64,000 nt of DNA from Glandiceps talaboti. Its lineage: Eukaryota; Hemichordata; Enteropneusta; Spengelidae. Each line of letters begins with the position of its first letter. Within the stretch, counting starts at the first letter, position 1. The DNA lies in assembly GCF_964340395.1 (NCBI RefSeq), contig NC_135561.1, forward strand, positions 4,093,001 through 4,157,000, written 5' to 3'. Positions 9,340 to 21,300 of the stretch are shown here, piece after piece. The position numbers were made by a program, and so were the translations under genes. Below the pieces are notes generated by a model. That model saw only the letters and a program-made list of their open reading frames with translations, was not told the origin of the DNA and made no database searches.

Positions 9340-12300
9340 CTGTAGTGATGATGGAAAGTAAAGTTAGATATAATATCCTAATTCATTTTTCAAAGATTTC
9401 CATACATTTGAGGTTGCTACTTATTGTCTAAAGTCAAATATCAAAAGAGAAAAGAAAAAGCTATCAAAAGAGAAAAGAAAAAGCTAGCAAAAGAAAAAGG
9501 CATAATCGAAAAAAATGATAAATATTATCAACTCTGGTATAGAAGTAGTCTAGCTGCTACCTACGGCTTCAACTCTCAAGATCTCTCTTCCCCCAGTCTA
9601 GCTTTAAATGAGAACTTTTATACCAAAATTTTGTTGAAAATGAGTAAACCCAAAACTGTTAGAATGATGTAAACAATGTATAAGTAGTGTCCTGATCTGA
9701 CAAATATACCATATTTGGACATGATGTAACTGTCCCCGATAAACACTAACTTATCATTAGTTAGAATACTGTGATTGATTAACAAAGACACTATGTTTAT
9801 GACAGTGGGTGAATTTGTTTGAATTTGAAATTTCATCTCAGGACATCATTTAGCTAGACATGAGCAGAGACTGGAAGCCATGGATAGCCCTCTAGACTTG
9901 CAGAGAAGAAACCTGCTACAAAATAATGTACAGCATCAGAGAAAAGTTCACAATAATAGGACTCTATTGTTGGACATTGTTTGGTCAAGGTTTCAGGGGA
10001 TGTGAACAAATGTTAACTTTCCCATGATGCATCATCCCCATTGTAAAATACATTTTTTCTGTTGGACAGTTTTTACAGATCTATTTCAGAGAGGTTGCAT
10101 TTTGCAAGGTCGGTCAGTAAATTTTTTTTGTGGCTTCCTATGCATAACTATTGCAGTGAATATGAAATCAGCTTCACTTTTGTTCTCCTTAAATATGCAC
10201 AAATAAAGTATTCAAGACAACATCAGGGTGACACTATATCATACTTTTAACAACATTACAGATACAAACATACATGCACACTCACAGTATACTGTGTCAC
10301 ACACACACACACAAATCTTTATATAAATTCCAATAGAAATGTGTATTCAGCCCACCTGGTTAGCAATATTGCCACCTTCTCTATGGTCTGTGGATTCTGA
10401 TGGTACAGATGGTGCTGATGTAGAGCTTTGTGCACAGGAATTCATATGTTCAGGCCAATGGGACTGCTGGCATGGATAATCACAATAACTTGTGTTCCAG
10501 CAACAGAAAAATATTGCCTCTTTACCACAGTTAGCGCACTAGAAGAAATAAGTACAAAAACAAAAGTTTTAGTCAATTATATGTTGAGGGCGCTGTGATA
10601 GTTTGCTCACTGACAGCAAAGAGTTAAAAGGCACAGACGCTGTACATTATTGTGCTCTAAAAGGTACGTAAATAAACAAAAGCATCAGTGATTCATGTGT
10701 TGAGGGCGTTGTACCACAGTTTGTATACTCTGAAAGTACAGCATAGAATACACTTTTCTTTCATGAATTTGTCTTAGTACATGTGACTTGTAACTATAAT
10801 AAATAGCCATTTAAAATGCTATGGACAATTGAGGGCTGCTTGAAGGCTGACAGTTCAACAATACATAACATTTGGTAAATATTACACAACACTTCAGGAC
10901 TTCAACTATATTATAGTATACATGTAACTCTGCAACAGCACACTTGGTAAATATTACATCATACTGCAGCTAGGATTTTAACTCACCCATTGTTTTTTCT
11001 TTGTTTCGTTTATAGCTGCCTGTTTCTCTACAGTAAACTCTTTCTTGACATCAGCTATGGAATTGAGTTTCTCTTTCTGTAAACTTTGGCGAATTTCTGC
11101 CACTGTCAATTCTGAAATACAAATACACAATATTACAACAAATTAGTGCAACAATCAAAAATATAAAACTTTTTATGACTACTGTACACTTAGATATTTT
11201 CACTACTACAAAGTTTTGCGATTTTAGTCTTCAGCAAGTTCTCAAAGACAAATTTTTTACTAATGACCAGACTGGTACATTGTGTTCACGTGCAAGAAGG
11301 CATTTTAGTCACTACTTATTTTTACTAATGACCAGACTGATACATTGTGTTCACGTGCAAGAAGGCATTTTAGTCAGTATTTATTTTTGCATTTTTGTTT
11401 TCCAGTGAAATTAGCAAAAATAAGTCTTTAGCAAAAATTTCCAGGTTTAGAGTGTATGGGTTAAAGTGAGATGGTTTGCAATGTGTAAGTATCTTTCATC
11501 ATTTTTGTTTCCAAATGATAGGTTACTTATATTTTACTTTTCTCTTTCACTTATTTAATGACTAGTAATCACTAGCAAAACTCCCATCGTATGAACTGCT
11601 GTGATACTGTATGAATAAAAATGACATCATTTTATTCTAATATATTAGACTACAGTATCACAGCAGTTCATACGACAGGAGTTTTGCCACTGGCTGCTGG
11701 TTAGTGCTATAAAATGAAATCAGTCCTTAAACAAGAGTTTCATTTCAATTCAGGGTAATGGCATTGATGTTATCTTATCAGAAGAAATCAAATGAGGAGA
11801 GTCCCTCATAGGTTTAGTGTTAGTGCAAGAGGAAACCGGAGTTGCCAAAGGGAAAACCTGTGTTGTTTGGTAGTTGAACTGAAAGACACTCTTTCTTTCT
11901 TACTACACCATGGCAAATGTAATCAAACCCACCCAGATGAGGGATGAAATCTATCAATTCTATATGTGCTCTGTGTGAATATTGCAGTACTGTCTGTGAA
12001 GATTTCCTACCTGCATTGTGTCATAGCTATTAATTCTACGTACTGTGTGAATATTGCAGTTACTGTACTGTATGTGAAGAATACCTACCTGCATTGTGTC
12101 ATAGCTATTAATTCTACATACTGTGTGTGAATATTACAGTACTGTATGTGAAGATTTCCATACCTGCATTGTGTCATAGCTATTAATTCTACATACTCTG
12201 TGTGAATATTGCAGTACTGTCTGTGAAGATTTCCTACCTGCATTGTGTCTTAGCTATTAATTCTACGTACTGTGTGTGAATATTGCAGTACTGTCTGTGA

Positions 12301-18300: not shown

Positions 18301-21300
18301 ATCCCATACCTGTCATGCTGACCAAAAAATCTGACATCTACTTGACCATCAACTTGTCTCAAAGCCTGCAAAATATCAAAACATAAAATGGAATAAAGAT
18401 GTGTAATTTCACAGGGTATTATAGAAATAAGTGAGTTGAGTTACCTGGGGGGGGGGGGGGGGGGGGGGGGGGGGGGGGGGTTGGGGGGGGGGTTAGTAAT
18501 GTAAAGATATGGAAACATAAGAGTGCTTAGATATAATTTCCCATATTTGTTGTGTGTACGTGTGTGTGTGTGTGTGTGTGTGTGTGTGTGTGTGTGTGTG
18601 TATCTGTGGGAGAGAGGATGTGTGTGTGTGTGTGGGAGAGAGGATGTTTGTGTGTATCTGTCTGAGAGAGGATGTTTATGTGTGTGTACGTATGTATGTG
18701 TGTGTGTTTGTGTGTATCTGTGGGAGAGAGGATGTGTGTGTGTGGGAGAGAGGATGTTTGTGTGTATCTGTGTGAGAGAGGATGTTTGTGTGTGTGTATG
18801 TGTGTGTGTGTGTGTGTGTGTGTGTGTGTGTGTGTGTGTGTGTGTGTGTGTGTGTGTGTGTGTGTGTGTGTGTGTGTGTGTGTGTGTGTGTGTGTGTGTG
18901 TGTTTATTTAAAATATGGAATCAAAGTTGACATCTTACCTTGGCTGGCCAGAATGGGAAACCTTTTAACTTTGCCCAGACTAGTTTGTGAGGTTCACGCT
19001 GAAATTAAAAGGTACATTATAAATGATCATTAAATATATACTTTAAAAATTGCACGTACTAACAATAAGTTACAAGCCGGAGTATGATGACAGCATGGTG
19101 TGGTTTCACAGCAAACATATACTGTTAATTTCGTACTGCCTTAACATTCAATTTCTTTAAAACATTCACTGCTTGAAATTGTAAACAAGGTTCAAAGAAA
19201 TAGTTATCTGTTTTCATACAGGATGACAAATAACTAGACATACTCACACAAGGTTCACAGAAATAGTTATCTTTTTTTCATACAGGATGACAAATAACTA
19301 GATATACTCACACAAGGTTCACAGAAATAGTTATCTGTTTTCATACAGGATGACAAATAACTAGACATACTCACACAAGGTTCACAGAAATAGTTATCTG
19401 TTTTCATACAGGATGACAAATAACTAGACATACTCACACAAGGTTCACAGAAATAGTTATCTGTTTTCATACAGGATGACAAATAACTAGACATACTCAC
19501 ACAAGGTTCACAGAAATAGTTATCTGTTTTCATACAGGATGACAAATAACTAGACATACTCACACAAGGTTCACAGAAATAGTTATCTTTTTTCATACAG
19601 GATGACAAATAACTAGATATACTCACACAAGGTTCACAGAAATAGTTATCTTTTTTCATACATGATGACAAATAACAGTCTGGGCATATCTCGATTTCAC
19701 TCATCTGAAAAACAAGACATGTGTCAGTATGAAAGGAATTGATTTAAATGGTAAAAATATTACAGTCTCATTGTAGGTATTTATGCTTTCAGATTGGGAG
19801 GTTGTTCTCTTCTCATACGAAGTCAGATTTCTATTCTATCCTTCTAGCATAATTTATGCAAATAAAGCATGTCAGCGGTGACATCATCTCTACTACCGGT
19901 AGTAGAATGTTATCTTACCTCATGCTCACATATCTTCACTACCATACGTGCACTAGTTGTCAATTTGTGATTGGCTGTTGAAAACAATCACATGATCTGG
20001 TTAATTAATCACATGATCTGATTATACAATCACATGATCTGGTTAAACAGTAACAAATGAGCTTAAATAATCACATGATGAGATAAACTCAATGATTCGG
20101 TAAAATAAATGAATGATAATGTCAAGCAATCACCTGAGATTAAACAATCACCTGATCAGAATAAGCAACCACATGATGAGATTAAAAATTCACATGATCA
20201 GAATACTAGTAAGCAATCACATGATCAGAGTAAGCAATCACATGATCAGCGTAAGCAATCACATGATCAGGTGAAACATCAAATTCAGAATGATCATCTT
20301 AAGTTAACAGTTATAACACAATCAACTTTCAGATCAACCAATATTTTCAACAACAACTTTTCTGTGGTGATATTTTTTTTCATTACTATCCATACCATTC
20401 TTTTGACAGTATCATACTTTATTCATCATAAAATCCAATTTGTACACGTACAACCAATTGAACATATTAAGTGATGATAAAAAAAACTATGAAAACTTAC
20501 ATCCATTATATAAGACACAATTATGTAATAACCATTTGGTATCAGCTAGAAATGCCTCAGTAGAACCATACATCTTTTTTGTAATATTCTGAAATATAAG
20601 GAAACGACGTAAACATAAACTGACGTCTATTTTTTGTAAATATTCTGAAATGTAAGAAAACGATGTAAACATAAACTGACATCTCTTTTTTGTAAATATT
20701 CTGAAATATAAGAAAACCATGTACACATAAGGTGTGGTCTATGTGTACACCTGTATCTCACAGACTGTAATATTTGTACAAAGTGTGCAAGTAGAGCCTA
20801 AATGAAAGCGGCATTATCCATTTCACTATGAGAACAATCCTATGACAGTAGCAAAACAGTAGGTTTTGATATTTACATATAAGGTATATATATCTATCTA
20901 TCTTATGAAATGTTCAATCAAATGATAGTATCATACTATGAATTTATTTAGTTTTACAGATAACATAAAAAATTTGTGATTCCTAACATTCTAACTGTAC
21001 TAATTATAGATAAAATAGACCTCTAATTAACATGTACAATGTATGATTATTGGTTTTTCACAATTGTCATTGAATACATTGCTGGTTGACTGATTGCAAT
21101 ATTTTATTGTTACTACTAAGTGCAGGCTTAAGCGTTAACATAAATTAACTGTTTTTTATTTTTCAGAATAATTTAACTCCATTATCATTTCATGGTGTTT
21201 TGGGGAACAAACATTTAAAATCTAAAATTGTACAGTGCTTTACCTTTTCCAGAGTACTCAAATCCATGGGATAAAACACATACTCTTCATAGCTTGGATG

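Follow-up and report, generated by a model that had tools for sequence, protein, structure and literature searches.

Minisatellite arrays that copy exon–intron junctions in ZMYND8 and in many other genes of a hemichordate

Within a 64,000-nucleotide window of the Glandiceps talaboti genome (contig NC_135561.1, forward-strand positions 4,093,001 to 4,157,000), the minus strand encodes ZMYND8, a gene in which four minisatellite arrays each repeat the edge of a coding exon together with its splice site. By "window" we mean this whole stretch, and coordinates without another label count from its first nucleotide. Exon-edge arrays occur genome-wide, in many unrelated genes, and are a known kind of feature, described from amphioxus under the name "mirages", now found in many genes of a new phylum. 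We consider it probable that they are ordinary tandem duplications that straddle a junction and are tolerated by splicing, with junctions perhaps acting as a moderate hotspot.

The first-pass annotation of the window had reported the four ZMYND8 arrays, and all of them are confirmed in place by Tandem Repeats Finder (TRF) and by the sequence; all, or nearly all, of their units contain a splice junction. Array 1 (11972..14231, minus strand) copies a donor. In its 74-bp unit the final 12 nucleotides (nt) of the coiled-coil exon are joined to 62 intronic nt, and 31 copies of CAATGCAG followed across the junction by GTA recur at a spacing of 72–78 bp; TRF gives the period as 440 bp. Array 2 (17397..17812, minus strand) copies an acceptor in seven 59-bp units, each combining 31 intronic nt, acceptor included, with the opening 28 nt of the large exon, so that TTTTTCAG precedes the junction seven times at a spacing of 59 bp. 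Array 3 (19185..19676, minus strand) is again a donor array, with eight 63-bp units that join 50 nt of the zinc-linker exon to 13 nt of intron. The exon end CCTTGT appears eight times at 63–64 bp and is followed by GTGAGTAT in seven copies, the last copy being without the donor; the exon frame stays open through five further 21-residue copies and meets a stop in the sixth. Array 4 (20570..20730, minus strand) consists of three 56-bp units, each holding the acceptor ATATTTCAG and the beginning of a bromodomain exon, with TTTCAG before the junction three times at that spacing. Donor and acceptor arrays are thus both present in one gene, and the donor signals of arrays 1 and 3 are intact in nearly all copies. 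Because the unit sequences are unrelated, the four arrays arose separately, which bears out the independent origin claimed for them earlier.

The host gene is identified by its protein domains and by matches to human ZMYND8. In single frames, Pfam profiles for the ZMYND8 coiled coil and the MYND finger score above their cut-offs, and pieces of PHD, bromodomain and PWWP score below; when seven exon pieces are joined, Bromodomain (E 7e-17) and PWWP also exceed the cut-off. Joining only the copies attached to exon bodies yields a 188-residue gapless alignment to human ZMYND8 (PDB 5y1z and 4cos; E about 5e-100) that spans three of the four array junctions. One copy of each of these three edges is therefore enough for the conserved protein, and the remaining copies are intronic. 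The same match gives indirect support to regular splicing that would proceed undisturbed. The exons concerned, all on the minus strand, are the coiled-coil exon (14220..14403; PF23460, E 5.9e-15), which ends in CACAATGCAG before the donor GTAGGAAA; the large exon (15337..17428; open frame with PWWP and ZMYND8 matches), which holds the end of the PWWP region and a low-complexity middle; the zinc-linker exon (19627..19704; gapless ZMYND8 match), which ends in GAACCTTGT before GTGAGTA; and the bromodomain exon (20501..20588), placed by the Bromodomain profile over joined exons and by the human ZMYND8 match. A codon-usage scan for exons was too weak where exons are short. Across the zinc-linker array and its exon (19185–19704, minus strand), later donors, if used, would yield a protein with repeated half zinc fingers.

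The arrays extend well beyond ZMYND8. The 10-nt donor word ACAGGTAAGT is repeated at 48–78 bp in 282 pairs genome-wide, and those among the matches listed occupy 12 places, nine of which are exon edges and three of which are not, or are not shown to be; about 400 bp on the exon side were fetched for 11 of the places, the sequence of L035 being already in hand. Most ACAGGTAAGT sites may in any case be true donors, so that nine of 12 shows that the arrays are widely spread, not that they are in excess. Twelve further exon-edge arrays are clear (L009, L035, L037, L040, L042, L044, L045, L047, L048, L049, L051 and L052). They lie at exons of UBA3, the catalytic subunit of the NEDD8-activating enzyme (E 1.3e-11), CDC5L (E 1.1e-14), Greatwall (E 5e-19), where the matched peptide stops at the donor, adenylate cyclase 5 (E 5e-11), PACS (E 8.6e-20), MORC (E 4e-11) and a PKD/TRP-type channel (L040; E 1.4e-4, just under the Pfam cut-off), the last with a 46-bp unit in rows spanning 5.3 kb. 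The array at L009 copies the acceptor of an EGF exon (E 5e-7) in a 58-bp unit that TRF counts 124 times. Open frames and splice sites identify the others: a DEAD-box helicase exon with weak homology (E 0.048), a VPS13-like exon named by eye with no homology match, L035 with a single Pfam match below the cut-off (E 0.01), and L037, which came, like L040, from 8-mer listings and for which no homology was found. The longest arrays exceed 100 unit lengths, as judged by span for L040 and by TRF for L009. The suggestion that ZMYND8 might belong to a wider phenomenon has thus proved right, the arrays being genome-wide in a second deuterostome phylum besides that of amphioxus.

Among the other loci read, L038 and L039 are not exon edges, and no exon was seen at L043 or L050. 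L034 is unclear, L036 is only plausible (its exon has 36 nt), and the array end of L046 lies outside the fetched stretch. At L009 (1–7052) the array runs past the fetched stretch, and the long open frames formed by its copies could pass for genes. L011 (1–5634) holds a 38-bp array of 148 copies whose unit contains CTACAGTAAGT, the exon end, if any, lying beyond the stretch fetched.

The anatomy of the units bears on how the arrays begin. We compared 16 of them, comprising 14 donors (among them the merely plausible L036) and two acceptors; L009 was left out, and for the bromodomain array the exonic portion was supplied manually, since the automated extension had failed at an indel. Exon sequence makes up between 0.13 and 0.80 of the unit, with a mean of 0.51, and this share does not depart from a uniform distribution (Kolmogorov–Smirnov p=0.50, n=16). 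As the junction has no preferred position in the unit, the splice site is not where duplication begins, and the earlier proposal of a process that begins tandem duplication at splice junctions finds no support. Unit lengths run from 35 to 115 bp, and 13 of the 16 are not multiples of three, as expected if the copies are untranslated. By eye, some unit ends show microhomology-like sequence and a few filler bases (ATGA at both ends in array 2), which is consistent with slippage or microhomology-mediated joining.

We propose that in each case the seed unit of a minisatellite happened to straddle an exon–intron boundary. Slippage or microhomology joining would duplicate about 35–115 bp in tandem, with ends that may fall anywhere around the junction. 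Such an event would do no harm, since with the copy beside the exon body the exon is still complete and its splice site functional; the spliceosome would choose this exon-proximal site, and all other copies, splice signals included, would be spliced out with the intron. Further slippage, or unequal exchange, could then expand some arrays to more than 100 copies.

Whether junctions receive more arrays than their share was approached with the donor words AGGTAAGT, AGGTGAGT and ACAGGTAAGT and, as controls, the composition-matched reversed words TGAATGGA and TGAGTGGA, both of which enter the locus test and one of which enters the comparison of repeated places; the samples are small. Among the matches listed, donor words form nine arrays at 166 loci and controls two at 194 (Fisher one-sided P=0.016). 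Seven of the donor arrays were read from the locus listings, and four are clear exon edges, one is plausible and two are not or are unclear. When only proven exon edges are counted, the comparison becomes four of 166 against two of 194, and the difference is not significant (P=0.27). The 10-mers occur in similar total numbers (3070 donor, 2751 reversed), and repeated places number 12 on about 130 Mb for the donor word and eight on about 346 Mb for the reversed word, a rate ratio of 3.6 (P=0.004) that presumes complete listings over the stretches they span. On contigs C1–C5 only, there are 12 donor places and one reversed place among the matches listed (P=0.003). Three of the eight control places carry a donor-like site in the unit, judged by eye; all eight, together with two donor arrays near 8.96 and 14.32 Mb of C1, are known from the listing alone.

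Several counting rules define these figures. Loci were counted by eye, same-strand rows less than about 180 bp apart being joined (row 991404, 239 bp away from its array, was included in it). The locus test covers the rows shown, with minus-strand rows only to 0.99 Mb in one listing and none in two others. Rows of the 10-mer below 2.94 Mb (10 single sites and an array at 2.934 Mb) were dropped to avoid double counting, and the AGGTAAGT row 2290613, which lies inside a AGGTGAGT array, was counted as a single site. Raw pair counts (3715 against 1886 for 8-mers, 282 against 202 for 10-mers) were not used because single large satellites dominate them; one 27-bp satellite accounts for 75 of 100 listed 8-mer rows.

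Placement within the window was also compared with chance. One unit per array was placed at random with exon interiors forbidden; in ZMYND8, four of 11 arrays straddle an exon edge against 1.04 expected, and the resulting P=0.014 is too favourable because the gene was picked for its arrays. The three annotated genes of the window taken together give four of 18 against 1.72 expected (P=0.084). This count per array replaced an ungapped control, in which 15–30% of random positions taken from the same spans have a nearby copy against three of 42 exon edges, a test that missed array 4 because of an indel and whose random figure is dominated by long arrays. The window is itself rich in arrays: its 64 kb hold 27 with periods of 25–120 bp, array 1 among them, or 4.2 per 10 kb, compared to 1.2 per 10 kb in 18 regions chosen by place (16 arbitrary regions and the two window flanks) and 0.5 per 10 kb at five chaperonin loci. 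In the 18 regions, one of 23 arrays with periods of 25–160 bp is a clear exon edge, namely an EGF exon acceptor, a rate at about the chance expectation if a few hundred thousand exon edges are assumed. At 31 Pfam exon matches in the five chaperonin genes, tested at match ends and not at refined splice sites, no exon-edge minisatellite was found, the nearest feature being a 10-bp repeat of 2.4 copies at one match end. Pfam scans run frame by frame elsewhere in the window gave no match; they also missed the TRAM1 exons within the scanned stretch and are uninformative on the absence of genes.

An SLC5-like gene and TRAM1 had been thought to show the same feature in smaller form. For TRAM1 (45926..54980, plus strand; located by tblastn), which serves as a control within the window, this does not hold, as no exon-edge array lies at any of its 16 junctions. 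Reading by eye finds nothing more than brief echoes, which are left out of the count: for instance, GGTTTACTACT occurs in the intron ahead of an exon that contains GGTTTACTACT, and AGCTTGAACTAG is shared with an array at 55038–55288. The SLC5-like gene, named from one weak match in the left flank (E 0.006) and from reading by eye, fits in part. It starts in the left flank (L023) and ends, by eye, near 1247. A 53-bp array (662..825, plus strand) repeats the terminal portion of the exon whose end is at 652 and shares GTGGAGTTAGGCATC with that exon, and the donor is lost in the copies; a degenerate second AGGTAAGT also lies downstream of the donor at 409. At best this is a decayed exon-edge array, and both SLC5 arrays were scored as non-straddling in the placement test.

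Taken together, a moderate excess of arrays at junctions, varying by gene, is probable but unproven. An enrichment over chance is favoured by the locus test and the rate ratio, loses significance when the four proven arrays are counted alone, and is opposed by the absence of exon-edge arrays at the chaperonin and TRAM1 junctions. If real, the excess could reflect purging inside exons, retention of the exon-side copy by selection or a local rise in the duplication rate. Three observations weigh against chance straddling followed by neutral tolerance. The excess of donor words over reversed words suggests that junctions may not be average targets, the open frame through five further units of array 3 makes use of later donors possible, and at L045 and L047 (the DEAD-box and VPS13-like exons) the copies share only five and six exon bases, so that the straddling is slight.

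A rival reading is that junctions are true mutational hotspots, for instance through transcription- or splicing-coupled breakage, where arrays would be seeded several times more often than elsewhere. We regard this as unlikely. All three donor-word comparisons point towards it, as do the donor-like sites seen by eye in three of the eight control places, but unit ends keep no preferred distance from the junction, neither the 31 chaperonin exon matches nor the 16 TRAM1 junctions carry an exon-edge array, and only one of the 23 arrays in the regions chosen by place is a clear exon edge. Moreover, the significance is lost when the four proven arrays stand alone, the control words are few, and the control word may occur more often in coding exons, from which arrays are purged.

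Maintenance by selection, whether as spare splice sites, as splicing enhancers or as a means of lengthening the protein, would account for the read-through of array 3 and for the intact donors of arrays 1 and 3. Homogenisation within arrays already predicts identity among copies, however, and the SLC5 copies have no donor; the arrays also occur in unrelated genes with unrelated units, at donors and acceptors alike and mostly with unit lengths that would shift the frame, so that we judge selection to be very improbable. We give still less credence to assembly artefacts. Long arrays are error-prone, and the assembly contains at least one likely concatemer (a contig with three COX1 copies, described below), but substitutions and small indels distinguish the copies inside an array, many unlinked genes show this anatomy with units that differ from gene to gene, and the published amphioxus cases, in the available portions of that paper, come from independent data (PMC3087553).

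The amphioxus mirages mentioned in the first-pass annotation do exist in print. In the available portions of the papers, to which all statements on them here are limited, they are described in Adh3, the globins BflGb6 and BflGb9, PGBD5 and troponin C, regular splicing is said to be undisturbed in the Adh3 and globin data, and a link to intron gain is proposed (PMC3087553, PMC3902484); unit lengths are 10–72 bp in Adh3 and about 150–160 bp in the globins (PMC3087553). The arrays described here share with them the minisatellite-like duplication of an intron–exon boundary and splice signals in many copies. As in the published description, units span the boundary and are of minisatellite size, and either the 5′ or the 3′ boundary is duplicated. 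They differ in belonging to a hemichordate, in affecting many genes and in reaching more than 100 unit lengths. Mirages are further characterised by copy-number polymorphism and somatic instability; the present data come from a single assembly. Intron gain by duplication of an AGGT-containing exon segment is likewise a tandem duplication with splice signals inside a gene, but there, as far as the available text describes it, the duplicated exon piece makes a new intron, whereas the present arrays copy a junction that already exists and lengthen its intron (PMC3087553). Ordinary intronic minisatellites, which are common in this genome, are alike in unit length, copy number and homogenisation, and differ in that the units described here include coding sequence and a splice site. 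No hemichordate case of such arrays was found among the top matches of a search of open-licence papers, which is not proof of absence.

Each array places several to more than 100 near-identical splice sites beside one exon and so amounts to a natural experiment on proximal-site choice. The arrays bear on how introns lengthen and on the routes by which introns and exons have been proposed to arise, and they matter for annotation because their copies resemble fragments of coding exons. A broader proposition, which we find possible if doubtful, is that junctions are several-fold duplication hotspots in deuterostome lineages (cephalochordates and hemichordates) and that introns commonly grow by copying their own boundaries; if such hotspots are true, they would supply thousands of natural experiments on spliceosomal choice among many near-identical sites.

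The 51-kb contig C40 contains COX1 three times, 15,435 bp apart, and is probably the mitochondrial genome in tandem, a concatemer in the assembly. Three kilobases of it read tRNA-Tyr (minus strand), COX1, tRNA-Ser (minus strand), tRNA-Asp, COX2 and tRNA-Lys, with 53% GC, a gene order that we take to be vertebrate-like and unlike that of echinoderms. The parts of COX1 and COX2 that were read contain no AAA, AGA or AGG codons, and ATA stands at positions that are presumably conserved isoleucines. In the available portions of two papers, hemichordates share ATA for isoleucine with echinoderms, and AAA, which encodes lysine in Saccoglossus, does not occur in Balanoglossus (PMC2697986, PMC3121625). 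From these mitochondrial traits we conclude that the genome is that of an enteropneust hemichordate and not of a lancelet.

Elsewhere in the assembly, many similar-scoring kinesin motor fragments (profile about 245–320) lie in rows about 1.8–2.1 kb apart on several chromosomes, C22 and C23 among them, which suggests an amplified kinesin-like gene or element. L022 (2599–8174, minus strand) has long open frames that resemble a retroelement polyprotein by eye. At L014 (1315–7018, minus strand), an exon with ATP-grasp-like sequence, again judged by eye, occurs twice in nearly identical form at a distance of about 4.8 kb, probably the result of a recent tandem gene duplication.

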